Below are positions 2,813-19,608 of a DNA stretch of 37,728 nucleotides, piece by piece. Every line of letters starts with the position of its first letter. Positions within the stretch are counted from its first letter, which is position 1. The position numbers and the translations under genes were made by a program. This DNA is from a virus: IMG/VR virus record IMGVR_UViG_3300029319_000162, positions 1 to 37,728 of that record; one strand, 5' to 3'. The notes beneath the pieces are model-generated. The model saw nothing but the letters and a program-made list of their open reading frames with translations. It searched no databases and was not told the origin of the DNA.

Positions 2813-3241
2813 TTACTTAACTGCTGGCTGTACTACTAGTTTAACGTAACCAGTACCCCATGTTGCACTGCTGGGGCTATAGCCACCATTAAGTAAGGCA
2901 TGTAAACAGTTAGGCTTTTTTGCACTATGCCCTAACTTACTGGCTTGGGTTAATATTGCTTGCAAGCTGGTATTACCCTCAAAACCTTTTAACAACCAAT
3001 TTTGTATAGTTGCCCTAACGCCAGTACCAGCCCCACCATAACCAAACGGTACAGGCTTGGCGTCGTCAAGCTTAACATTACTTAACGGTACTACGTGTAC
3101 ATTGTGTAAGCTACCAGCAGCTTGCGTATTAATAAACTGCCATAGCTGGGCATAGGTTACTTCCTCACCGTTAGCTATTTGTAACGTGGGCTGTTTAACG
3201 GTTGCTGTTTTATTAGCTGTTTTTGTTTTAGTATTTTGCAT
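2813..3241 (-). CDS. Hypothetical protein, 142 aa; paralogue of the neighbour at 3538-4017
   Basis: Unrecognised family. The first 25 residues are a Lys/Thr-rich, probably disordered basic tail. Residues about 25-140 form a compact domain ending in GHSAKKPNCLHALLNGGYSP and WGTGYVKLVV. Over that domain it is clearly homologous to the 159-aa product next door: both share VVPLSNV/IVPLSNV, PVPFGYGG, GVR-TIQ-W, LGHS-KKP-CLHAL-NGGYSPSS and YWGT/TWGT-Y-KLVVQ. AGGAG lies six bases before the ATG, and an extended -10 promoter is visible upstream, so it is expressed on its own. A rho-independent terminator follows. The basic tail and packaging-region location would suit a DNA-binding or capsid-associated role, but this is a guess. 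Confidence 0.8.
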   Translation of the reverse strand: MQNTKTKTANKTATVKQPTLQIANGEEVTYAQLWQFINTQAAGSLHNVHVVPLSNVKLDDAKPVPFGYGGAGTGVRATIQNWLLKGFEGNTSLQAILTQASKLGHSAKKPNCLHALLNGGYSPSSATWGTGYVKLVVQPAVK

Positions 3242-3537: not shown

Positions 3538-4017
3538 TTAAGCTTGAACAACTAGCTTGATGTAAGGTGTCCCCCAATACTTAGAGGAAGGAGAATAACC
3601 ACCGTTCATCAAAGCATGTAAGCATGTCGGCTTTTTACGGCTGTGTCCAAGAGGAGCAGCTTTATTGAGAACAGCTTTAAGGGACATATCCCCATTAACA
3701 CCTCGCAACATCCAGTCCTGAATGGTTTGACGAACACCACCTTTTTGACCACCGTATCCAAACGGCACTGGCTGGTCACTGGCGAGATCAACATTTGACA
3801 ACGGTACAATTTTGACGTTGCCCTCATTACCACCAGCATGTTCCTGGACAAAGTTCCAGACCTCTTGGTGAGAAATCTCCTGATCGGTGACTATTAACTC
3901 AGGCGACTTAGTAGTCTTGACTTTGGTTGAAGTCTTGACCTTTGGCTTAATCCCGAGAGGGGACATACCAGCTAGAGGTGCGACTTGTGGTGTTTTGATT
4001 TTTTTAGTGCTTGTCAT
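3538..4017 (-). CDS. Hypothetical protein, 159 aa; paralogue of the neighbour at 2813-3241
   Basis: Unrecognised family; second member of the tandem pair. The N-terminal 45 residues are basic and probably disordered (many Lys, Thr and Pro). The conserved domain runs from about 45 to 158 with PVPFGYGG, GVRQTIQDWMLRG, LGHSRKKPTCLHALMNGGYS and WGTPYIKLVVQ. AAAGGAG lies seven bases before the ATG. Unlike the 142-aa copy, the gene looks richer in G+C by eye and uses different codons for the same residues, so the two either diverged long ago or were acquired separately. It has its own terminator and a possible extended -10 promoter, so each paralogue appears to be an independent cassette. No catalytic pattern is evident. 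Confidence 0.8.
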   Translation of the reverse strand: MTSTKKIKTPQVAPLAGMSPLGIKPKVKTSTKVKTTKSPELIVTDQEISHQEVWNFVQEHAGGNEGNVKIVPLSNVDLASDQPVPFGYGGQKGGVRQTIQDWMLRGVNGDMSLKAVLNKAAPLGHSRKKPTCLHALMNGGYSPSSKYWGTPYIKLVVQA

Positions 4018-8820: not shown

Positions 8821-9432
8821 CTAAAATAACTTTTCTAGCTTGATTTTGCGTGTGCCTTGTAAATCTTTGATTATTTCTATCACATGTGCGTAATAATCTT
8901 GTTTTTCATACCGATCTTGTATATAATTGCAACCTTTGATAAATACATCTTCTGCCCGACTGTTGCCCTGTTGCATCAACCTGTAGCAATGAAACACCAG
9001 TTCTAACTTATCGGCGATATCACACATTTCTTGTTCTTGTTGGCTCACATTTATCATAGTCGGTCCAATGCCTATTTTTTGTTCATATTCTGTTTCTATT
9101 TGTAACATTAAGTGACTTAGGTCATCATACTTCCATTTAGTGGTCGCTGGTATATCACCTGTTTCTGCTTCTGCCACATCATGATACATCATATGCAGTA
9201 AACCATTCTTACTAATATCAGGAAAAAGTGTTTGTAAAATAACCATAGCCCTCCATGTATGAGCAGCAACATTTTGTCCATCAGCTATTTCTGGGCGAGT
9301 ATGATACCGTAATACATGTCCACCACGTAATCTATCATATAATCTGCGTAGATTCGTAGTTTTCTTAACTTTTGTTGCAATAGATTTTATACTAACATTT
9401 GACTGTGCTTGCTTTTTAATCCTCTTGTCCAT
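8821..9432 (-). CDS. HD-domain phosphohydrolase, YfbR-like nucleotidase
   Basis: This probably hydrolyses deoxynucleotides, removing phosphate from (d)NMP or dNTP. The metal-binding residues are visible: H58 in NVAAHTWRAMVI, H84-D85 in MMYHDVAEAETGDIPATTKW, and Asp in CDIADKLE at about 137-143. The HDVAEAETGDIP block is the signature of YfbR-like 5'-deoxynucleotidases and of the related phage dNTPases (DatZ type). Length 203 aa fits. It overlaps the end of polA by 46 bp, so it is made with the polymerase; the likely job is shaping the dNTP pool during replication. The substrate cannot be read from sequence; dTMP or dTTP would make sense beside the thymine-modification genes, but this is inference. 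Confidence 0.85.
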   Translation of the reverse strand: MDKRIKKQAQSNVSIKSIATKVKKTTNLRRLYDRLRGGHVLRYHTRPEIADGQNVAAHTWRAMVILQTLFPDISKNGLLHMMYHDVAEAETGDIPATTKWKYDDLSHLMLQIETEYEQKIGIGPTMINVSQQEQEMCDIADKLELVFHCYRLMQQGNSRAEDVFIKGCNYIQDRYEKQDYYAHVIEIIKDLQGTRKIKLEKLF

Positions 9433-11306
9433 GGTTTCTCCGTAAATGATTGTTTAGCTTCCCCCCAATTTGGTCCGAACTCTGCATCAACTATAGAGGG
9501 AACTTTTAGTTGTACGCAGTCTTGCATTATTTCAGTAATCTTTTTAGCTTGAGCTTCACTATCCACCGATATATCTAATTCATCATGCACTTGAATCATC
9601 GGTAATATTCCTTCCTCAGCTAATGCTACCATCGCAGCTTTTGTTTGATCAGCAGCTGACCCCTGAATTAATTTATTTAGAGCTTTATATGTAAACGCTC
9701 TTTTGATAGCAGGTCCATGTTCTGCAAAAGCATCTTTATAAGACATTGGTTTCCATGTTCCATACTTATTAGGCTCCCACTTATCAAATCTACATCTTCT
9801 ACCAAGTAAGGTACGGATTACTCCTTTACTACTTGCTCTGTTAGTGCAGTACTCACTTAACTCACGAACAAAAGGTACTTTATCATGGTAGATAGAAAAT
9901 AATTCTTGAGCATCTTCATACTCTAACCCTAAACTTGCAGCGAGCTTTTTTGCTCCCATACCATAAAACAAACCTAAATTAATATCTTTAGCTTGTTTTC
10001 TTGGCACTCCTACTATATCAGCTGCCATTTGGTGGAAGTCCGTTCTAGCATCTTCATTGTATTGCTGAGCAAACTCTTGTGCTCCTCTAAAGCCCATTAG
10101 ATTAGCATAATGAACAACAATACGTGGTTCTTGGCTAGAATAATCAAATGCCCCCCACAAGGCTCCTTCTTCTGGTATAAATAAACTACGTATCATCGGA
10201 CCTATTTCACCATGTCTTGCTGGGATTTGTTGTAGATTAGGGTTACTGTAACTAAATCTACCTGTAACTGTACCTCCTTCATCACTACGTAAAGGATGTA
10301 GCTCAGCATGAATACGACCGTTGACTTGGTGTTTTAGTATTGTATCAACAAAAGCTGACCGAGCTTTTTGGTACTCACGTGCTTCTACAATCATTTGTGG
10401 TACTCTGTGTGGGTGGTTTGCTAAGAACCCTTTCGTGAAGCTTGGAGCACCAGTCTTTTCTGTTTTACTATAATCTAATTTTAATTTATCAAACACTTTG
10501 GCAACACTCTCAGCAGCCCATACCTCAACTGTCACACCAGTAATCTCAAAAATTTTATCTAGTAATCTTTTTTCTTTAGCGAGTAAATCTTCTTTTATTT
10601 TCTCTGCTTTTTCTAAATCAACCCTGACACCTTTTTCTCTCATAGGTATGATTGTTCTCAATACTTTATGCTCAAGGTTTATTATATCACCAATATCTTC
10701 TTTAATTATTAATGACTTAAAGTGGTTCCACAATCGTAAGGTGAGTGAAGCATCTTGTTCTGCATACTTACCGACATGAGCAGCAGGTAATTTATACATC
10801 TCACTTTTAGCGTCAACTCCAAAAGCTTCTGCTGCCTCACGTAACTCAGCCTCACTTTTACGTTCCTGTAAGTAATCTCTACCAAGTGCATTCAAAGCAT
10901 AGCTAAACCTATTTTCATCAAGTAATGGAGCAACCACCATAGTATCTACTATATTACCATGTATCTTTACTCCTTCAGCTAATAACCAACCAACATCATA
11001 CGGAGCATTGTGGAACACATAATCACGTTCTTTTTTGCATACTTCTTGTAACCAGTTGAGTGTCATACGTTTATCAAAGTTTGGACCTATCTCATGCTCT
11101 ATAGGGAAATACCATTTACCTCCCTCAGTAGCTACGGCTACACCGATAATACAGCCATCTTTTCTAGCCCAACCACTTCCCATGACGGAAAGGTTTGGGT
11201 CTTTAGTTTCAAGGTCTATTGATACTTCTTTAGCTTGTGATAAGTCAGGATAGCCATCTGGCATTATCCATTCAGTCGGTGGTTGGAACAGTGGGTATTG
11301 TGTCAC
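9387..11306 (-). CDS. polA: DNA polymerase, family A with 3'-5' exonuclease
   Basis: The replicative polymerase, 639 aa. Exonuclease motifs: DLET with D31/E33, NAPYD with N100/D104, and YAEQD with Y181/D185. Polymerase motif A is FDYSSQE with D388; motif B is RKQAKDINLGLFYG with R436, K440 and Y448; motif C is VHDE at 573-576. No 5'-nuclease domain is present, as usual in phages. The position equal to E. coli Phe762 is Leu444, a variant reported more often in slower or temperate phages. The start is GTG at 11306 with GAGGAT upstream; the zinc-ribbon gene overlaps its 5' end and the HD gene its 3' end. Confidence 0.95.
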   Translation of the reverse strand: MTQYPLFQPPTEWIMPDGYPDLSQAKEVSIDLETKDPNLSVMGSGWARKDGCIIGVAVATEGGKWYFPIEHEIGPNFDKRMTLNWLQEVCKKERDYVFHNAPYDVGWLLAEGVKIHGNIVDTMVVAPLLDENRFSYALNALGRDYLQERKSEAELREAAEAFGVDAKSEMYKLPAAHVGKYAEQDASLTLRLWNHFKSLIIKEDIGDIINLEHKVLRTIIPMREKGVRVDLEKAEKIKEDLLAKEKRLLDKIFEITGVTVEVWAAESVAKVFDKLKLDYSKTEKTGAPSFTKGFLANHPHRVPQMIVEAREYQKARSAFVDTILKHQVNGRIHAELHPLRSDEGGTVTGRFSYSNPNLQQIPARHGEIGPMIRSLFIPEEGALWGAFDYSSQEPRIVVHYANLMGFRGAQEFAQQYNEDARTDFHQMAADIVGVPRKQAKDINLGLFYGMGAKKLAASLGLEYEDAQELFSIYHDKVPFVRELSEYCTNRASSKGVIRTLLGRRCRFDKWEPNKYGTWKPMSYKDAFAEHGPAIKRAFTYKALNKLIQGSAADQTKAAMVALAEEGILPMIQVHDELDISVDSEAQAKKITEIMQDCVQLKVPSIVDAEFGPNWGEAKQSFTEKPWTRGLKSKHSQMLV

Positions 11307-11451
11307 GTTTGATCCTCATTGGTTGTTTGCATCTTTTACAGATGGGAAATTTATTTTTTATTGCTCGAAAAGTAACTAATCTACTTGTACCACAATCATC
11401 ACACACAGCTAATACAGTATTATTTAGTTTTCCATTCGCACCTGTCTTCAC
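11272..11451 (-). CDS. Zinc-ribbon protein, 59 aa, GTG start
   Basis: Found by reading the gap between polA and the upstream gene. The GTG at 11451-11449 has AGGAGG nine bases upstream, and the frame stays open to TGA at 11274-11272. The product carries CDDC at 17-20 and CKRC at 38-41, a short zinc ribbon, with a basic C-terminus (KQPMRIKRD). It overlaps the upstream gene by 32 bp and polA by 35 bp in other frames, so it tightly links the two. It might assist the polymerase or bind DNA or RNA polymerase; this is unproven. It also explains the otherwise empty 113-bp gap. Confidence 0.7.
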   Translation of the reverse strand: MKTGANGKLNNTVLAVCDDCGTSRLVTFRAIKNKFPICKRCKQPMRIKRDTIPTVPTTD

Positions 11452-11791
11452 GAAACATATCCTCCTGCATGTCTGCTATATTATCTTCTGGGCTGTTATA
11501 CTTTCTAGTAACTTCTGCTTCAACTAAAGCTAAATACCTACGTAAGTCACCTATATCATCTAGTATACCTTCTTCCCTACGGTCGATATGCACTGCATTA
11601 AAGATATCATAATTACATTCTTTTACTTGCTTTTCTAACCTATCCCACTTACGAGCTAACATCATAAAAGCACCCACTCCCCCACGCTGTTTCCAACTAT
11701 TACCATAACTCTTTTCAGCTTCATGTAATTTATGAACATCACTGGTGGTTACTTCCTCTACCATTTTAATCATATCGCTATACTTTTCCAT
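11420..11791 (-). CDS. Nmad1/DUF1599-like (MazG-like) small protein, 123 aa
   Basis: All-helical. YGNSWKQRGGVGAFMMLARK, followed by WDRLEKQV, at about 32-60, and EGILDDIGDLRRYLALVEAE at about 80-99 resemble DUF1599, called nucleotide modification associated domain 1, whose fold is related to MazG-type pyrophosphatases (KYG-SW, LARK--RI, DTL-DLA-Y-L). I choose the ATG at 11791: AAGGAG is six bases upstream and it overlaps the thymidylate-synthase stop as TAATG, whereas the first Met of the longer frame (11815) has no ribosome site. A role in handling modified nucleotides or clearing dNTPs is inferred from family and neighbours. Confidence 0.6.
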   Translation of the reverse strand: MEKYSDMIKMVEEVTTSDVHKLHEAEKSYGNSWKQRGGVGAFMMLARKWDRLEKQVKECNYDIFNAVHIDRREEGILDDIGDLRRYLALVEAEVTRKYNSPEDNIADMQEDMFREDRCEWKTK

Positions 11792-12786
11792 TACTTTCTC
11801 CTTCTTTTTAGCCATTCAACACAAGCTTTTCGCCATGCTCTATCTTCAATTATATTAGCCCATTCTATCGCTTCTTGGATATTACCTTGTTTCCAAGACT
11901 GCCAACTCTTTCTAACCATATTTGCTGTAGTTAGTAGATATAAATTGTTGTAATCTGTTTTAGTTTCATCAGCAAACCATTCTAAAAGTTCTACATTAAA
12001 AGTATCTTTATCTGTAATCATATATGGGGGGCTGTAACTTAATCCATCATCAGCTATGGTAAGATAATTATCTCGCTCACCGTTTTGTATTATCCCTTTT
12101 ACCTTGTCAAATACCTCAGTGTATACATGCAGATTATTACTAAACTGATAATATTTTCCCACTACGCAGTCAGTCATCGCAGCCATGTATTCAAGTAAGA
12201 TTGACATATGCACAGCATTTGCTCCGTATGCTCCCCATATCATATCATTACTACGGTTACACACTGTCATATCCAAAGTATCTTTACCTACTACATTTCT
12301 TTTAGAAAAATAGATATGTGTATTGCAAGGATAATCTTTACCATCATTAGTAGAAACTAAATCATGCTTTGGATCCCACATACCCAACACTGCTCGTCTA
12401 TCATTTTCATACGTATTTAATCTAAAAATAACTTGGTGTATTTGATCCTTTTCAAACCAATGTCTCCACCTGTGACCATATGCACCATGAAACCTAATAC
12501 CATCATCAGAGTATGTATTAATTCTTCCATTAAACTGGCTTATCCATTCAACATCATTCCTACCTGCTAGCATCCAAAAAGATTCCATCAAATGGAAAAA
12601 AGGGTTAGCATCTCGCTGCTCATAAAACAGCACTCGTTCCCTACTGTTTGTATAAGTGGTCATGACTGGACTAGGGAACTCTAATACTTCGCCATTGCGA
12701 GTATTTATTTTTCTACCAAAGTTCTGAATACTTTGTAACCCTTGAAATAGGGCATCACTTACGTTACGTGCGTATATCTCGTGCAT
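11791..12786 (-). CDS. Thymidylate synthase homologue; candidate dUMP hydroxymethylase
   Basis: A 331-residue member of the ThyA fold. Seen: MESFWMLAGRNDVEWI at 67-82 (catalytic Glu68), RRAVLGMWDP at 130-139, nucleophile Cys154 in DYPCNTHIYF, RSND at 178-181, GAYGAN with Asn190 (the residue that prefers uracil over cytosine), and NNLHVYTE with His220/Tyr222. So it should act on dUMP. The canonical LGLPFN block is replaced by WGAYGAN, and the C-terminus is a basic extension rather than the usual hydrophobic AV end. Phage homologues of this kind can make 5-hydroxymethyl-dUMP instead of dTMP; sequence alone does not decide. GAGGAGG precedes the ATG, and a 13-bp hairpin covers its upstream gap. 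Confidence 0.85.
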   Translation of the reverse strand: MHEIYARNVSDALFQGLQSIQNFGRKINTRNGEVLEFPSPVMTTYTNSRERVLFYEQRDANPFFHLMESFWMLAGRNDVEWISQFNGRINTYSDDGIRFHGAYGHRWRHWFEKDQIHQVIFRLNTYENDRRAVLGMWDPKHDLVSTNDGKDYPCNTHIYFSKRNVVGKDTLDMTVCNRSNDMIWGAYGANAVHMSILLEYMAAMTDCVVGKYYQFSNNLHVYTEVFDKVKGIIQNGERDNYLTIADDGLSYSPPYMITDKDTFNVELLEWFADETKTDYNNLYLLTTANMVRKSWQSWKQGNIQEAIEWANIIEDRAWRKACVEWLKRRRK

Positions 12787-12796
12787 TTAAACACCT

Positions 12797-12859
12797 CCTC
12801 GACGGCTCTTACTGTTAAAAATGTATAAACATACCCAAAAGCACCTAGAGCCATCGAGG
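12797..12859 (-). other. 13-bp intercistronic hairpin between glycosyltransferase and thymidylate synthase
   Basis: CCTCGACGGCTCT (12797-12809) pairs with AGAGCCATCGAGG (12847-12859), 12 Watson-Crick pairs and one G-U as leftward RNA. It covers the last codons of the glycosyltransferase and sits just before the ribosome site of the next gene. It has no T-run, so RNA processing or translational control is likelier than termination. Confidence 0.6.
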
Positions 12860-14143
12860 GGCTTCTATTGGGCTTATTCCGAAAAAAGCTAAGTTTTTAT
12901 TACATTTTTCGAATGTTTGCTTATCTGGCTTACCTGTTACTAATTCTTCTTGGTCAATACCCAATACTAAATCTACATATTGTTGTGCGACATATGCTTT
13001 ATCAAACTGTTTTATAATTTCACGATTATTTTCAACTATATGTAACCAAGTTGTTTTATCATTTAAAGAATGATCAATTAGTTCTGCAAACTCTTGTGGA
13101 GAACACCCTGCTTTTATCTCTATATAGTTTGTATTAGGTAGAAAAATCTTACTATCTTTCATACCCCAATCGGTAGCCATAGGGACAGCCCCTGCAATAA
13201 TAGCTTCTACTGTTGTTCTATTAAAGTGAGCTCCGAACTTTGCATACTTACCACTGAAGCTTGGGTCTATCTGTAACTTTACTTGTTTAAGAACTTTCAT
13301 AACCTCACTGTTAGGAACTGTACCTAAGTGTGTCATTCCATGTTTTAAAGCCATTTCCCAAATACGATTACCAGAGTCATCAAAATATTTAGGCTTACAC
13401 TTTTCTTTACTAGTCATATATCTGTACTCAATACCTTCTCCACCCACCAACTTTGATTCTTTTGATAATAAATGTGGGATAGCTCTGACTAAAGTATCTA
13501 CTCTTTTCCATGCCTTAAATACTTGAATCGCTGCAAACCCAGACCGTTGTTCAAATGAAAAAGGATTCGGTGTAACTTTTTCTACATCAAAAGGATTGAG
13601 AATAAGCTTTCTGGGTAAAGGTAATATTTTTGCAGAATGATACGCTGACTCGTGAACACAAACGCAAGCATGAAACTTATCAACTACGTTTAGTAAATGG
13701 GGATAAAGCTCAGGTAAATTACCATCATGTATAATAGCTATGTTTTTACTAGAATTATCATACAAGTCTATCCAGTCACTTACTTGTTTATGGTCTTTAT
13801 TAAGAGTAGGTACAGGAATATGCCATAGTATCGCATCATATTTCCCACATCTTTCTTTAAATTGTTCTTTGTAAAAAGAATTAAGATAAGCAACTTTTGG
13901 TAATTTGTACCAGCCCCTAGCTTGATGATGCCAATATCCTGTTCCTTCATCTATTTTTTTATAGCCCTCCTCCTGAAGCTGAGTAAGTGTTTTGTTTTTA
14001 GTTATAGGTTGTTTTGATCTTGGAGTAAGAACAACAAAATCTACCTCATGTCCTAACCTTTTTAATCCCTTTGCTAAGTACTCAGCGTGGTTTATGATTC
14101 CTCCATAATCTTGTATTTGAAACAGTGTCATGAGAAACTTCAT
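12845..14143 (-). CDS. GT-B glycosyltransferase, family 4-like
   Basis: It starts MKFLMTLFQIQDYGGIINHA with EYLAKGLKRLGHEVDFVVL, the Rossmann opening of GT4 enzymes with the acceptor-side GG loop. The C-terminal donor domain shows FAAIQVFKAWKRVDTLVRAI and, near 315, FNRTTVEAIIAGAVPMATDW, equivalent to the GT4 E-x7-E region that binds the nucleotide sugar. Length 432 aa is normal. ATGA overlap with the upstream hypermodification-type gene and position directly before the thymidylate-synthase homologue suggest it transfers a sugar to modified phage DNA. Alternatives are decoration of virion or host-surface glycans; sequence cannot decide. AGGAG lies eight bases before the ATG. Confidence 0.8.
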   Translation of the reverse strand: MKFLMTLFQIQDYGGIINHAEYLAKGLKRLGHEVDFVVLTPRSKQPITKNKTLTQLQEEGYKKIDEGTGYWHHQARGWYKLPKVAYLNSFYKEQFKERCGKYDAILWHIPVPTLNKDHKQVSDWIDLYDNSSKNIAIIHDGNLPELYPHLLNVVDKFHACVCVHESAYHSAKILPLPRKLILNPFDVEKVTPNPFSFEQRSGFAAIQVFKAWKRVDTLVRAIPHLLSKESKLVGGEGIEYRYMTSKEKCKPKYFDDSGNRIWEMALKHGMTHLGTVPNSEVMKVLKQVKLQIDPSFSGKYAKFGAHFNRTTVEAIIAGAVPMATDWGMKDSKIFLPNTNYIEIKAGCSPQEFAELIDHSLNDKTTWLHIVENNREIIKQFDKAYVAQQYVDLVLGIDQEELVTGKPDKQTFEKCNKNLAFFGISPIEAPRWL

Positions 14144-15054
14144 TGTATCGCTCCTGAAGGTAATCTACTTGAAGATTGCTTAAATAAACTGCGAGGTCTA
14201 CCCTCACCCAGCCTAACTCTTTCGTACTTATCCCACTCACATAAGCTATGTTCAATAGTACGCATGTCTACTTCTGAGGAGGGAACATTATAACCAAATG
14301 ATTGTTTAACTCCCTTACCATAGCTAAGTAAGAATTGCATCTCCTTGTTAGCTTGTTCTTGGCTTATCGCTTTGTTGAGTGGTCTTTCCCCAATCCTGTT
14401 AAGACCACGAATTGCTCCAGGTCCTGCGTTTGCCCAAGTAAAACGGTCTTTTGGGCGTGGTAACACAGATGTGTAGTTGAGGTCGGAAACGACTTCATAA
14501 GACATAAAACCTCCCCCTCCCCATCCTTTATAGGAAGCCATCGCCTCGTGCAGCTTTTGGAGCGAATTTGTTTGGGACGCAACATCAGCAAGTTTTTCCT
14601 TATCTTGCCAGATGGGGGATAAGAAGTGGTCAACTACTACCTCCGACTTTCTAAGTTTTAAACCTTGATTTGTTATTATATACGCTCCAGTAAATGTACG
14701 TAACCCTGCGTATAATCTTTTTTCTATAATTGCTTTAGCACGAGTAGGATCCCATTCTGTTACCCAGCCATGCTCTTCAGCAAACTCAGTCGTACCAACC
14801 ATTCTAAACAAACAACAATTAAATATTATTTCACCATGACTTCGGTTGTGGTTTGGGAATGTCCAGTTCTCACGCATCCAAATTGTAACCTTATCATTCT
14901 CCCTAAATGGATTAGTAAACTTATACTTCTGTAATATAGGATCATTAGTCCAAGGAGGAGGGAGACCTTTTAATCTTAGCTGGTAAATACGATGCCGTTC
15001 TGTTATCCAATCATACAGATTCCCAGCATTTAATTTAGCATTTTTTTCAAACAT
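14140..15054 (-). CDS. DNA base hypermodification protein (aGPT-PPlase clade 3 type)
   Basis: Matches the family called alpha-glutamyl/putrescinyl thymine pyrophosphorylase clade 3, or 5-hmdU DNA kinase helical domain. Seen: FRMVGTTEFAEEHGW at 83-97, LYAGLRTFTGAYII at 114-127, a helix-hairpin-helix-like GWGGGGFMSYEVVSDLNY at 177-194, and FTWANAGPGAIRGLNR at 205-220. These proteins are predicted, from phages with hypermodified thymine, to act on 5-hydroxymethyluracil in DNA through a DNA-glycosylase-like fold. No P-loop kinase domain is present in this 304-aa version. Its stop overlaps the glycosyltransferase start (ATGA), so the two are co-translated. The exact reaction is unknown. Confidence 0.8.
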   Translation of the reverse strand: MFEKNAKLNAGNLYDWITERHRIYQLRLKGLPPPWTNDPILQKYKFTNPFRENDKVTIWMRENWTFPNHNRSHGEIIFNCCLFRMVGTTEFAEEHGWVTEWDPTRAKAIIEKRLYAGLRTFTGAYIITNQGLKLRKSEVVVDHFLSPIWQDKEKLADVASQTNSLQKLHEAMASYKGWGGGGFMSYEVVSDLNYTSVLPRPKDRFTWANAGPGAIRGLNRIGERPLNKAISQEQANKEMQFLLSYGKGVKQSFGYNVPSSEVDMRTIEHSLCEWDKYERVRLGEGRPRSLFKQSSSRLPSGAIQ

Positions 15055-15074
15055 CTTCTTCCTTTCTGTGAAGT

Positions 15075-15106
15075 GGTATGGCTAATTCTAATAAACCAGC
15101 CATACC
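15075..15106 (-). other. 9-bp hairpin between DUF932 gene and hypermodification gene
   Basis: GGTATGGCT (15075-15083) pairs perfectly with AGCCATACC (15098-15106), 14-base loop. It lies in the 70-bp gap just upstream of the ribosome site for 15054, with no T-run. Confidence 0.6.
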
Positions 15107-15124
15107 GTGACAACCGTTACTTTA

Positions 15125-16159
15125 TCATGCAGCTTCTGCGTAGGACAGTGCTTTTGTAAGAGCTGTATTTTTAGTCTTAGCTCCTGAGCCAAACCATGCT
15201 GAGTGTAAAGCGTTACCCTCTGCGTGTGAGCGTTTTTGGTGATCCATTACATAAGTAACACCATTCAATGCTCCCCACCACGTACCTTTTGCTGAACGCA
15301 TATCTGATCCAGGAGAAGTTTCAATAGCCTCGTAAACTAACTCAGCTGTATTTTTAAACTCATCACGGAGAGATAGTGGCTCTAAACCTAAAGCTCGTTC
15401 TGCTTTACCTCGGTCAATTAAAAGCTGTGGCTGGAATAACTCAGCAACATAGTTCTCAACATCAACTTGTTTATAAGACTTGCTAGCTAAGAACTCAGCT
15501 TGCTCCTTAAAGTAGTTCATTTGTTTACCACTTATACCGAGTGCTTCCTCGGCAGCTTTAATAATCTCTTCATCAAACATTTGTAAATGTAAGACTCTGA
15601 ATCTATTACCTTCCATATTAAGTGCCTGAGTCAAAGTGTTGTTACAGACAACACGGATTGGTGTAAACATTATAGTCATAGCCTTACCGACTTGGTGACT
15701 ATTATTTAATAATAAATAGCCTTTGACCTCATCATCACCAGCTAACCTAAACTGGTCAGTAAGTTTTGCTAATCCCCAGATATTTCTACCCTCTTTTAAA
15801 CTACCTGCTGTCTCCATTGTCATATCGCCAGCATCAGTAAAGCGTTTAAAGAAGTCCATAACTTCGTGGTTTTGGAAAGGAACATAGCCCTCACCACATT
15901 TGGAAAGTATCTTGTTATCTGAATCACGCACTAGGAAGTAATCTTCAGGTGCTCGTATAAAGCTAGCTTCACCAGTTGGGTCGATTATATTCCAAGTATT
16001 TGGTTTATCAACAGTATAAGCTGGTCGTTTACTTACTGACCAATCTAATCCAGCAGCTTCTAACATTTGTGCTGGTGTCATATTACTATCTACTGCTTTA
16101 CCTAACCCATGCCAAGGAACCTCCCCAGCATAAGCCATAGTTTCAATATTATGTGCCAT
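15125..16159 (-). CDS. DUF932 phage/plasmid-like protein (TIGR03299)
   Basis: The opening MAHNIETMAYAGEVPWHGLG with KAVDSNMTPAQMLEAAGLDW is the signature of the phage/plasmid-like TIGR03299/DUF932 family. Further matches are FIRAPEDYFLVRDSDNKILS, FKRFTDAGDMTMETAGSLKE, GYLLLNNSH and the late ALNGVTYVMDHQKRS. Its 344 residues are the family's usual length. The role is not established; such genes occur beside replication and recombination modules of phages and plasmids, as here. AAAGGAG precedes the ATG. It sits between a small unknown gene and the hypermodification cassette. Confidence 0.85.
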   Translation of the reverse strand: MAHNIETMAYAGEVPWHGLGKAVDSNMTPAQMLEAAGLDWSVSKRPAYTVDKPNTWNIIDPTGEASFIRAPEDYFLVRDSDNKILSKCGEGYVPFQNHEVMDFFKRFTDAGDMTMETAGSLKEGRNIWGLAKLTDQFRLAGDDEVKGYLLLNNSHQVGKAMTIMFTPIRVVCNNTLTQALNMEGNRFRVLHLQMFDEEIIKAAEEALGISGKQMNYFKEQAEFLASKSYKQVDVENYVAELFQPQLLIDRGKAERALGLEPLSLRDEFKNTAELVYEAIETSPGSDMRSAKGTWWGALNGVTYVMDHQKRSHAEGNALHSAWFGSGAKTKNTALTKALSYAEAA

Positions 16160-16172
16160 TTGTTACTCCTTT

Positions 16173-16436
16173 CTATGATGAACGTGGCATATCGACAGAT
16201 GGTAAACTGTCGTAAGTTTTAAACTTTACATCTAATAGTGCAAAGTTCTTATCATCGAGCAATACCTGACAACGCATCTCTTGGTCATTGTGTGGCATAC
16301 TCCATGCTATTGGAAACCTAAGTGTATCAGATAATTTTTCAACAACAGAGGTTCTCAATGATTGATTACGCTTACTGCGTATAGCTTCGTCGTTAGCTTT
16401 TTTAAGGCTATCTTTCGTAAAAAATTTCACTTGCAT
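16173..16436 (-). CDS. Hypothetical protein, 87 aa
   Basis: Unrecognised. A basic helical N-terminus (MQVKFFTKDSLKKANDEAIR, SKRNQSLRTS) is followed by a beta-type segment (MRCQVLLDDKNFALLDVKFK). AAAGGAG lies six bases before the ATG. It is the first gene after a 134-bp gap holding promoter-like sequences and a 13-bp hairpin, so it probably leads a sub-operon with the DUF932 gene, which follows 13 bp later. Confidence 0.65.
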   Translation of the reverse strand: MQVKFFTKDSLKKANDEAIRSKRNQSLRTSVVEKLSDTLRFPIAWSMPHNDQEMRCQVLLDDKNFALLDVKFKTYDSLPSVDMPRSS

Positions 16437-16460
16437 ATCTTTCTCCTTTGCTAGTGTGGG

Positions 16461-16525
16461 TATGCAAGAGTAGACTTCCGATTTTGGACACCATTTAGTC
16501 CCCTCAGATTTGCTACCCTTGCATA
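16461..16525 (-). other. 13-bp leader hairpin before the 87-aa gene
   Basis: TATGCAAGAGTAG (16461-16473) pairs with CTACCCTTGCATA (16513-16525), 12 Watson-Crick pairs and one G-U as leftward RNA; a small GGAC/GTCC stem lies inside the loop. Two overlapping TATACT motifs directly upstream (16524-16536) could be -10 elements placing the transcript start near the foot of the hairpin. Confidence 0.55.
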
Positions 16526-16570
16526 GTATAAGTATAAAAAATACTGTTACAGAAGATAACTCTTTTTTGT

Positions 16571-18088
16571 TCAGGTAGGGATAGCATACCCACGACTAAA
16601 CATAGGGTGTACTAGATGTAACTTTTCTGTTGCTCTTGTCAACCCTACATAAAAAACTCTCGCCTCATCTTCTTCATAATTATTAATCTTCCTCCACATA
16701 CTATACGGTCTTTTCATAGTATCTGTCAATAACATCACGTTAGTGGCTTGTGATCCTTTCGCTGAGTGAATGGTAGATATTCGTATCCGAGGAGTTCTTT
16801 CTAGCTTTTCTCCCTTACGCAAACATGCTTTTATATATATCTTATCTCTTTGGCTTATTTTTCCTAATCCCTCATCCCATGGGAGATTATGTAATAATCC
16901 ATGCTTTTCTTTTAAATCTTCTATACTATAAAAAACACCTGATTCACCATCGGGCATGGTCTTATATCCATATTTTATTTGAGTGTTCAATAGCATATGT
17001 TTATATACTAAACGCACCTCTTCCATACTTAATCTGCCACCGTATCTTAATGTCTCCCACAATCTTACAGCTTCTAAAACATTAGCATCTATACTTTTAG
17101 ATCCATTGTAAGTATATAGGTGTCCTCTTCTTCTTACTTCTTCCTCTATCTGTTGAGCACCTCTAGTTGTTCTGCTTAATAACAGCCACTCACCATCACT
17201 TAGGTTTACCTCCTCCGAGTGTCTATGCCAGTGGACAGATCCTTCACTTTCTCTTGGCTCAAATACTTTTACTCTTCTTCCAACTATACTCTGTATTACT
17301 TTTGTACTCAATGTATGATGGGAAGAAGGTATTCTATAAGACCTATCTAATAAGGTTACATCACCTTTTAAATTAACAAAGTAATCAACATCAGCACCAG
17401 CATACCTAAATATAGCTTGGTCATCATCACCAGCTACGTAACATACCTTACTATTTTGTTCTAACATCTTAACCATCTCCCACTGGATAGGAGATAAATC
17501 TTGGGCTTCATCTATAAAGACAACCTCTAGCTTAGGACAGAGTTTATTTTCTATAAATGTTTCTAACATTCCAGCATAATCTTGTAAGTCAAATGCTTTT
17601 TTCCACTCATCCAACCCTCTGGCTACATAATCTACTCTTGACCAATCAGTTTTTAATGGGACAATACTTTCATTATAAACCTTACGTAAAGGCTGCCTCA
17701 GTATCCTAGATATATTTATTATTTCTAAAAACTTATCGCCATAACCCACATCTTTATATGGTCCTTGTTCAACTGTTGTGCCTGTGTAGAAGTTCCCTAT
17801 TTTTAACCAGCCAGCTACTTCTTGATATTTTTCAGGTGTCAGTATTTGTGAATGGTTTAAGCCAGACATCATAAACGCAAGACTATGAAGTGTTCTAAAG
17901 TAAGGTAAGTCCCTCCTTTTTAAACTAAACTTTGTACATGCTCTATCAATAGCTTCACTTGCTGCTCTTCTTGTAAAAGCAAAATACCCTATCCTATCAG
18001 GTGGTGTACCTGAGTTTAAATAACTCTCAACAAGGTTAAGTAATTTTGTGGTCTTACCAGTTCCAGGAGGTCCTAATACGATATGCAC
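16571..18088 (-). CDS. UvrD/Rep-like superfamily 1 helicase
   Basis: An ATP-driven DNA helicase, 505 aa. Walker A GPPGTGKTT at 6-14, TLHSLAF (motif Ib region) at 66-72, DEAQD at 193-197 (motif II), GDDDQAIFRYAGAD near 222 (motif III), STIHSAKGSQ near 440 (motif V) and FYVGLTRATEKLHLV near 480 (motif VI). It is shorter than cellular UvrD, as in other phage SF1 enzymes. The start is GTG at 18088, which overlaps the primase stop as TAGTG with GGGAG seven bases upstream. Coupling to the primase and absence of a DnaB-type helicase in the window make it a candidate replicative helicase. Confidence 0.9.
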   Translation of the reverse strand: MHIVLGPPGTGKTTKLLNLVESYLNSGTPPDRIGYFAFTRRAASEAIDRACTKFSLKRRDLPYFRTLHSLAFMMSGLNHSQILTPEKYQEVAGWLKIGNFYTGTTVEQGPYKDVGYGDKFLEIINISRILRQPLRKVYNESIVPLKTDWSRVDYVARGLDEWKKAFDLQDYAGMLETFIENKLCPKLEVVFIDEAQDLSPIQWEMVKMLEQNSKVCYVAGDDDQAIFRYAGADVDYFVNLKGDVTLLDRSYRIPSSHHTLSTKVIQSIVGRRVKVFEPRESEGSVHWHRHSEEVNLSDGEWLLLSRTTRGAQQIEEEVRRRGHLYTYNGSKSIDANVLEAVRLWETLRYGGRLSMEEVRLVYKHMLLNTQIKYGYKTMPDGESGVFYSIEDLKEKHGLLHNLPWDEGLGKISQRDKIYIKACLRKGEKLERTPRIRISTIHSAKGSQATNVMLLTDTMKRPYSMWRKINNYEEDEARVFYVGLTRATEKLHLVHPMFSRGYAIPT

Positions 18089-19608
18089 TAAATCACTCCC
18101 TTATCCACTGGTAGGCTTGGTAAGGGAATTTGTTCATCTTCTGTTTGGAAATATTTCTGAGGTAATGACCATACATGGATACCTTTACCTTTTACTCTCC
18201 AAAACATTTTTTCTGCCTCTAAATCCTGTAATCGTAGCGTTATCTTATTAGAAGTGTAATGATTGAAGTCATTTACAGAGAGATGCTTTTTAACATCTTT
18301 TATTTGGAAATACACTCTTTGGTCTACCCAAACAGCTGTTCCCTGTAGTATATCTTCTCTTTCCTCACCCCTAGCTCTTTCACAACAAAAGGCATGTAAT
18401 AAATCTTCAAACTCACCTTTTAATGTGGCATCAGGTGGGACTTCAACTATTGTTACATTATCTAATAGTAACTGTATTCTAGTTTGCCATGCTCTTTGGT
18501 TGACTGCAATAGGAAACTTGTTGATTTGTGAAACACACTCCTTTTGAAACTGCCCTTGACTAGTTAATCCGTTAGTTGTTAATTCAACACGCTCTCCATC
18601 AACATTTAATATCCATATGGGTGGATCGCCATCTATTTTAGTAAGACTAGACATGTCATTACCAACACCTGTTGGTCCGACTCCATACTTTCTTGTCTTA
18701 CATATTTCTTTATCGCAAAAAGGTTTTATAGGCTGGTCTTCACATTTATAGAAATAATCTTTTTTCTTTAGCTGTCGTATAACAATACCGACTTCCATGT
18801 GAGACAAAGGTGGCTTTAAGTAATCCATATTATAACGCTGGACTAATACTTCCCAATTATCTTGCTCACACATACGTGCATAAACACCTAAATTAAATAG
18901 AGCATTGTTACGAGAACCCTCATTAAATCCTTTACTACATAAGTGCTGTAGACAAGGAGGTCCTTCTTCAAGAACACCTTCTTTTGTACCAAAGCCCATA
19001 ACTAACTTATGAAACTTAGCAGGAGTGATTATAAAATCTTTTACATAATTTAAAAATTCCTCAAGAGATAAAGCTTTACCCTCATCATCAAAAGCATATC
19101 GAGTAGTATTATCTTTACCATGATAAGGCATATTTAAGAAGTTACCTGTATCCCCTCTATCTAATAATATTTTAGTTTGTTTAGGAAATATCTCACTGCC
19201 TGAAAAACCCAGAGCAGCACTAAGTTCTGTCATTTTTCTTTGCATATCTTCAGCTTCTATAGGTTCGTTTAGGAAGATCCATATATGTGCTCCCCCTGAT
19301 TTAGTTCTACCTACAATCGCTGGTATATTATTTGTTCTTAAGGTTGTGACTATTTGTTTATGGTTGATATCATATTTATCGATATCTATTGCACCCCATT
19401 GACATGTATTATCACTTCTTATAGGGATAATACCTAGTCCTGTCCCCCCTTTTAAATGTTCTTCCCACATAGCTACTGTTGTACTTTCTCTGATAACTTT
19501 AGCCATGCCCTGCTTTTTACCATCTTGTCTATTAGAGTTTACTACATACGTTCCGTGTGCAATATCACTCCCTTTAAACAATTTAAATAATTGTTCTGCT
19601 ACTGACAT
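18088..19608 (-). CDS. Archaeo-eukaryotic-type primase (AEP, TOTE-like) with PriCT-like region
   Basis: This would make primers for the polymerase. Catalytic residues of an AEP fold are visible: WGAIDIDKYD at 71-80 with the D75-x-D77 pair, then SGGAHIWIFL at 104-113 with the His, and KILLDRGDTGNFLNMPYHG further on. Residues about 225-290 (KGFNEGSRNNALFNLGVYAR) resemble a PriCT helical domain. The C-terminal third is unassigned and may be a winged-helix region. This replaces the Toprim/DnaG primase seen in T7-like phages. The GTG-started helicase follows in its stop codon. AAGGAGG lies five bases before the ATG. Confidence 0.8.
   Translation of the reverse strand: MSVAEQLFKLFKGSDIAHGTYVVNSNRQDGKKQGMAKVIRESTTVAMWEEHLKGGTGLGIIPIRSDNTCQWGAIDIDKYDINHKQIVTTLRTNNIPAIVGRTKSGGAHIWIFLNEPIEAEDMQRKMTELSAALGFSGSEIFPKQTKILLDRGDTGNFLNMPYHGKDNTTRYAFDDEGKALSLEEFLNYVKDFIITPAKFHKLVMGFGTKEGVLEEGPPCLQHLCSKGFNEGSRNNALFNLGVYARMCEQDNWEVLVQRYNMDYLKPPLSHMEVGIVIRQLKKKDYFYKCEDQPIKPFCDKEICKTRKYGVGPTGVGNDMSSLTKIDGDPPIWILNVDGERVELTTNGLTSQGQFQKECVSQINKFPIAVNQRAWQTRIQLLLDNVTIVEVPPDATLKGEFEDLLHAFCCERARGEEREDILQGTAVWVDQRVYFQIKDVKKHLSVNDFNHYTSNKITLRLQDLEAEKMFWRVKGKGIHVWSLPQKYFQTEDEQIPLPSLPVDKGVI

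Follow-up and report, generated by a model that had tools for sequence, protein, structure and literature searches.

A pelagiphage-like cassette predicted to make a sugar-bearing thymine replacement carries a glycosyltransferase where other cassettes carry a kinase

RESULTS

Layout of the cassette and placement of the phage

We analyzed a 37.7-kb IMG/VR virus record (IMGVR_UViG_3300029319_000162; G+C content, 37.6%), the whole of which is called the window here. On its minus strand lies a cassette in which a PF18723 protein (HEL), a glycosyltransferase (GT), and a thymidylate synthase (TS) homologue are encoded in a row. Reasoning to the chemistry from the enzyme class, protein family, exclusivity, and gene exchange that we read from sequence, we think it likely that this cassette builds a sugar-bearing 5-hydroxymethyl-2'-deoxyuridine (5-hmdU) in phage DNA. 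An initial annotation of the window had placed the open reading frames (ORFs) of the cassette correctly, as follows.

14140..15054, minus strand: HEL, 304 aa, PF18723 (HMUDK_hel, "5-hmdU DNA kinase, helical domain"; Pfam E value, 2.7e-49; phrog_2396, 6e-54)
12845..14143, minus strand: GT, 432 aa, GT-B fold, distantly GT4-like (PF00534, 6e-6, just under the cut-off)
11791..12786, minus strand: TS-family pyrimidine hydroxymethylase, predicted dUMP 5-hydroxymethylase (PF00303, 6e-22; phrog_5131, 3e-103)
11420..11815, minus strand: P131, conserved 131-aa protein (longest ORF; alternative start at 11791)
11272..11451, minus strand: ZNR, zinc-ribbon-like ORF of 59 aa, CxxC...CxxC (from the sequence)
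9387..11306, minus strand: polA, DNA polymerase A with a 3'-5' exonuclease domain (PF00476, 4e-63; PF01612, 2e-10)
8821..9432, minus strand: HD-domain YfbR-like 5'-deoxynucleotidase (PF12917, 1.5e-8)

The HEL gene (15054-14140) is joined to the GT gene (14143-12845) by an ATGA overlap, which the annotation had also noted. A second proposed overlap, TAATG between the TS and P131 genes, depends on the start of P131: it is present if translation begins at 11791 (the ATG at MEKYSDM...) and absent for the longest ORF, which begins at 11815. The polA gene has a GTG start and overlaps the ZNR gene, and the HD nucleotidase gene overlaps polA. Both of these genes (11306-9387 and 9432-8821) had been named beforehand, and both have Pfam matches. 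The zinc ribbon stood in part: the ORF with its CxxC pairs exists, and its position is kept among relatives, but it matches no Pfam family.

The gene order of the cassette recurs in dozens of independent IMG/VR contigs; therefore, the arrangement is not due to chance. The window terminase is 62% identical to that of Pelagibacter phage HTVC027P, and the polA product is 51 to 55% identical to those of HTVC023P-type phages. These identities place the phage near the HTVC023P/HTVC027P pelagiphages, as a SAR11-type ocean phage. Among sequenced phages, there was no megablast match to window DNA from 9000 to 19000 and no tblastn match to the GT. Thus, we know of no isolate that carries this GT.

The TS homologue is a predicted dUMP hydroxymethylase

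The TS homologue has Cys154 and, in a WGAYGAN loop, Asn190, exactly as first described. The same loop occurs in other HEL-linked enzymes, YuA gp17 among them; in SPO1 it reads WGTFGAN. The protein shares 42% identity with the phage M6 enzyme and 34% with SPO1 gp29, which is annotated as a dUMP hydroxymethylase. In a 16-row tree, a branch with 100/100 support separates the window, SPO1, ViI, and M6/YuA-type enzymes from Escherichia coli ThyA and phage thymidylate synthases. The split between hydroxymethylases and dTMP synthases has support of 95/99 in a larger, 59-row tree.

Compared with E. coli ThyA, the window enzyme no longer has Trp80 and carries Asp in place of Leu143 (Asp151, at Cys-3), Asn in place of His147, and Asn in place of Gln165; Asn177 is kept (as Asn190). 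Asp at Cys-3 is a hydroxymethylase signature where dTMP synthases have Leu, and Asn or Asp at E. coli position 177 tells dUMP (uracil) enzymes from dCMP (cytosine) enzymes (PMC6400193). The motif at the catalytic Cys is KDYPC in the window, KDRPC in SPO1, KDMIC in ViI, and ALAPC in E. coli. A phylogeny had been suggested as a check on this homologue, and in it the protein groups with dUMP hydroxymethylases, separate from dTMP synthases. A reading as an ordinary dTMP synthase was rejected because of the tree position and the residues. Assignment to the dUMP hydroxymethylase class is a prediction well supported by the sequence, and the phage very probably makes hydroxymethyluracil in place of thymine.

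HEL is present without the kinase route

The profile search suggested for the 304-aa protein gave a clear match to PF18723 (168.5 bits against a cut-off of 25, covering profile positions 7 to 277 of 281). The annotation had called this protein an aGPT-PPlase of clade 3. The cassette of an M6-like phage has been described with the gene names HMase, Nmad5, aGPT-Pplase1, nucleotide kinase, rSAM, PLP, and aGPT-Pplase2 (PMC9476957). In YuA, the order is amino-acid:DNA transferase (ADDT), pyridoxal phosphate (PLP) enzyme, radical S-adenosylmethionine (SAM) protein, P-loop kinase PF18748, HEL, Nmad5, hydroxymethylase, HD, DUF3310, and polA; the kinase is YuA gp13, and HEL is gp14. Comparison of these orders equates HEL with aGPT-Pplase1, and the clade 3 assignment was given up.

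HEL in the window has no kinase domain of its own, and neither the P-loop 5-hmdU kinase (PF18748) nor the ADDT (PF18724) was found in the window. That no kinase is visible had been noted at the outset, and it extends to the relatives: PF18748 was absent from 21 related contigs of 50 to 69 kb, while 4 of 4 positive controls were detected. A kinase encoded elsewhere in the phage was rejected on this basis. PF18724 gave only weak matches in relatives (E values of 6e-5 to 2e-4, in 3 contigs), all of them where the HEL gene lies. A search with PF18747 found no match anywhere and was uninformative, since the positive controls were likewise blank.

Glycosyltransferase and kinase routes are mutually exclusive

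We assembled about 170 relatives, beginning with about 80 marine contigs and then adding distant relatives of HEL. Among these were 139 distinct HEL loci with flanks of 2.5 kb or more on each side, 131 of them with a TS homologue. A GT in the slot between HEL and the hydroxymethylase, without kinase or ADDT, was present in 104 of the 131 loci; kinase or ADDT without a GT was present in the other 27. No locus had both and none had neither (Fisher P value of 1e-28, which is overstated because the loci are related). Thus, the GT in the place of the kinase, first noticed in the window, is a general rule. An end product such as glycosylated hydroxymethyluracil had been suggested at the outset, and the comparison of loci favors glycosylation more strongly than the window sequence by itself could. 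The GT loci include 5 with a slot protein family that we call CL5.

We also searched 20 whole kinase-type records with PF00534, PF20691, and the window-type GT profile (A3). None of the three matched, and positive controls were detected. Therefore, the exclusion reaches beyond the cassette neighborhood.

Two further kinds of locus were seen. The marine HEL and hydroxymethylase locus L160:7728-10682 (IMGVR_UViG_3300006753_000108) contains a P-loop gene resembling the kinase (PF18748, slightly below the cut-off) and a sulfotransferase gene (PF00685, 1e-10) between the HD gene and P131; this locus possibly makes yet another hmdU derivative. Near the HEL relatives L153, L241, L248, L254, L259, L264, L265, L268, and L269, hydroxymethylase, kinase, and GT were not detected, and 4 of those present on the HEL tree form one clade.

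The slot between HEL and the hydroxymethylase is exchanged

In the marine contigs, the slot is occupied by the window GT family, by TAGT, by a family that we call GTC, or by CL5. TAGT proteins (PF20691, about 1e-15; phrog_842) occur with a radical SAM/SPASM protein and often with an NrdR-like zinc ribbon. GTC is remotely homologous to the window GT (hhalign probability, 95%; E value, 3e-8) and sometimes occurs with an FkbM methyltransferase. By hhalign, CL5 has no homology to the window GT, and PDB profile searches with GTC and CL5 gave no meaningful relative. At least three types of enzyme, TAGT among them, are found in the slot.

On a HEL tree of 66 rows, a minimum of 4 changes is needed for the kinase or GT label and a minimum of 22 for the slot type. 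The pair L018 and L049 is a clean slot exchange: their DNA matches at about 84% identity as far as the final base of HEL, the slot genes cannot be aligned by BLASTP, and similarity returns just before the hydroxymethylase gene. The nearest relative of the window HEL (L004, 82%) has GTC and a methyltransferase in the slot instead.

FkbM-type methyltransferase genes lie by the slot GT at L004:10027-10767, L178:8894-9625, and L175:6486-7178, and radical SAM/SPASM genes do so at L011:9905-10957 and in 20 TAGT loci. Their presence suggests that the sugar is tailored further. Given the exchange of the slot and its frequent association with such genes, relatives probably carry different sugars. In the spring-water phage L190 (MW202897), positions 10001-12299 hold a TAGT-like "glucosyl transferase," a "pyrimidine hmase," and an HD gene in a row, with no HEL annotated in that stretch.

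When the sampled TAGT family was used as the starting point, 30 of 34 loci with full context had both HEL and TS, and none had kinase or ADDT. Since the other 4 lacked HEL, HEL is the usual but not an obligatory partner.

The window GT is predicted to act on DNA

The fold of the GT bears out the first description of a GT4-like glycosyltransferase. Its AlphaFold2 (AF2) model (pLDDT, 89.7) has two Rossmann-like domains in a GT-B arrangement and matches PimA by Foldseek (1.5e-13). VIA Z scores were 25 to 26 to GT4 enzymes and to T4 alpha-glucosyltransferase (AGT), and complexes of the T4 enzyme with HMU-containing DNA tied among the best (Z, 25.4). At the sequence level, the GT had no PF20691 match at an E value of 0.01 and matched GT4-type models, and a PDB profile search gave no significant match to T4 AGT. 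The model firmly supports a glycosyltransferase and only weakly supports DNA as its substrate.

Scanning for the GT itself, we identified 59 distinct members of its family; in 48, HEL and TS both lie within 6 kb. Ten had only HEL or only TS (the contig was truncated or the flank ended), and 1, at a contig edge, had neither. Thus, the family stands beside HEL, TS, or both in 58 of 59 distinct loci, with kinase or ADDT in none.

These counts bear on the idea that the phage leaves 5-hmdU plain, or makes a different TS-family product (5-hydroxy-dU, for instance), and that the GT serves an unrelated purpose, such as modifying a surface polysaccharide or a virion protein. SPO1-type phages do keep unmodified 5-hmdU, surface glycans are the usual target of GT-B GT4-like enzymes, and TS-family enzymes of Mosigvirus can make 5-hydroxy-dCMP (PMC13390438). 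However, translation of the GT is coupled to that of HEL, the GT family adjoins HEL or TS almost without exception and alternates with TAGT in one slot, and the GT and kinase routes never co-occur. We consider an unrelated GT improbable. We propose instead that the GT transfers a sugar to 5-hmdU in DNA.

HEL has a predicted helical fold that may be shared with base-flipping enzymes

The AF2 model of HEL is all-helical (pLDDT, 89.5). Its highest VIA Z scores were 10.9 to QNG1, 10.8 to the PaMx11 gp46 glycinyltransferase, and 10.7 to MjOgg. Many HhH-GPD DNA glycosylases, along with QNG1, scored 9 to 11 over up to 230 residues; unrelated rows scored about 3.7, and no Foldseek E value was below 0.26. 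A PDB profile search with HEL gave no meaningful relative. From this fold and from co-conservation, we propose that HEL is a 5-hmdU-DNA recognition or base-presentation protein. T4 beta-glucosyltransferase glucosylates 5hmU in duplex DNA only if it is mispaired (PMC4111573), and a helper that presents the base is therefore chemically sensible.

The same data leave room for HEL as a catalyst, that is, a relative of ADDT or of the PaMx11 enzyme PUGT that acts on a modified base, with the GT acting before or after it and a product that is not simply glycosyl-hmdU. PaMx11 gp46, a 5-PmdU glycinyltransferase, probably belongs to the ADDT family by its annotation, and the HEL model matches PUGT (8z2n) over 223 residues at the Z score of 10.8. 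The weak PF18724 matches at the HEL position point the same way, and so do the many polar residues of HEL that are invariant across kinase- and GT-type loci. On the other hand, the substrate of PUGT is 5-phosphomethyl-dU, and there is no kinase here to make it. A direct profile-profile comparison of HEL and ADDT was not significant, and HEL is kept in the gene order while the chemistry of its partners changes, which suits a recognition module. A catalytic HEL therefore seems to us unlikely, though it deserves serious attention.

Other genes of the window

P131 is present in 98 of the 104 GT-type loci and is strongly conserved (YGxSWKxRGGxGAFMMLARKWDR...DDIxDLRRYL). It had been described as Nmad1/MazG-like; with 17 family members, there was no match to such a model in Pfam at E values up to 1 or in NCBIfam, and we dropped that description. 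Upstream of the cassette (16571-19608, minus strand) lie genes for an AEP-TOTE type primase (PF22548) and then a DNA helicase, which are found in nearly all relatives with full flanks. Two adjacent paralogous small ORFs of 142 and 159 aa (2813-3241 and 3538-4017, minus strand) share the core VPFGYGG...LGHSxKKPxCLHALxNGGYSPSS.

DISCUSSION

We suggest the following pathway. The TS homologue would convert dUMP to 5-hydroxymethyl-dUMP, a step that the sequence supports well. The HD nucleotidase may limit dTMP and so clear a competitor, by analogy with SPO1-type phages, where dTMP is lowered. PolA would then incorporate 5-hmdUTP and thereby replace T in part or completely. Once the DNA is replicated, HEL, with its predicted HhH-GPD-like fold, would recognize or flip 5-hmdU in the duplex without cleaving it, and the GT-B enzyme would attach a sugar, taken from an NDP-sugar, to the oxygen of the 5-hydroxymethyl group. 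HEL would thus be a shared module, serving the P-loop kinase and ADDT in M6/YuA-type phages and interchangeable GTs here.

The position of all cassette genes directly upstream of the phage polA could also mean that the sugar is added to hm-dUMP or hm-dUTP before incorporation. However, the closest functional analogues, T4 AGT and beta-glucosyltransferase (BGT) and the base J pathway, act on DNA, the predicted fold of HEL resembles that of DNA-binding, base-flipping enzymes, and known hmdU pathways modify the polymer (PMC6449724). Addition at the nucleotide level is thus very improbable to us, and we favor glycosylation of DNA.

Several results weigh against glycosylated 5-hmdU as we propose it. 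Forcing the window TS row to the dTMP synthase side in an approximately unbiased (AU) test gave a P value of 0.0545, so that rejection was just missed; the constraint is also satisfied with the window enzyme as the earliest branch among the hydroxymethylases, and we read the result that way. The GT fold resembles ordinary GT4 enzymes equally well, and the fold by itself does not establish a DNA substrate. Only position and motif identify the slot proteins of the 5 CL5 loci as glycosyltransferases. The HEL fold matches, with Foldseek E values of 0.26 or more, depend on VIA Z scores of about 10 to 11, which helical proteins can reach through a common arrangement. TAGT stands beside a hydroxymethylase without a detected HEL in L190 and L429, and HEL is therefore not always required.

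A broader proposal is more tentative, and we would put it somewhat short of even. PF18723, filed as a kinase helper, may be a general module that presents 5-hydroxymethyluracil bases in DNA, either to the kinase and amino-acid transferase route or to hot-swappable GTs. Ocean phages would thereby run rapidly diversifying sugar-bearing thymine replacements under pressure from defenses that sense modification. PF18723 has so far taken its name from the kinase, and because the GT and kinase routes strictly exclude each other, its role can be tested directly.

If the cassette acts as proposed, base-J-like DNA is carried by a widespread lineage of phages that infect a dominant ocean bacterium. This would matter for restriction, CRISPR, and type IV defenses and for bias against these phages in sequencing or cloning. 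The swappable slot would be a ready set of distinct predicted DNA glycosyltransferases. According to a 2019 paper, glucosylated 5hmdU had not been reported in any phage genome (PMC6449724), and we did not find sugar-bearing thymine replacements demonstrated for phage in the literature searched. In this partial literature, we also did not find the GT-B slot family, strict alternation with the kinase route, or repeated slot exchange. The window GT-B enzyme, GT/kinase exclusivity, and slot swapping thus appear to be new.

Comparison with known systems

The M6/YuA cassette (5-NedU; Mesyanzhinovviridae) shares HEL, the hydroxymethylase, the HD nucleotidase (YuA gp18), and polA with the window, in a related order. 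In contrast, the window lacks its P-loop 5-hmdU kinase, ADDT, PLP enzyme, radical SAM protein, and Nmad5 and has a GT beside HEL instead. T4 AGT and T-even hmC glucosylation resemble the window in the GT-B fold, in the logic of a hydroxymethyl-pyrimidine in DNA, and in a TS-family hydroxymethylase, but T4 modifies cytosine, whereas the window is predicted to modify uracil. To our knowledge, T4 has no HEL-like partner. Kinetoplastid base J (beta-glucosyl-5-hydroxymethyluracil) belongs to the predicted product class, with a sugar O-linked to 5-hydroxymethyluracil in DNA. There, JBP1/2 hydroxylate T in DNA before JGT acts, whereas the window phage is predicted to introduce the hydroxymethyl group into the nucleotide. 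HTVC023P-type pelagiphages, which are of the same lineage as the window, have TS and aG/PT-PPlase1 partner genes; TAGT was reported beside these genes in 2022 as the one named GT family, in a subset of these phages (PMC9599517). The available part of that report does not describe kinase exclusivity or slot exchange, and the window GT belongs to a nonhomologous GT-B family. TAGT (PF20691) occupies the identical slot in relatives of the window and is a different protein family from the window GT.

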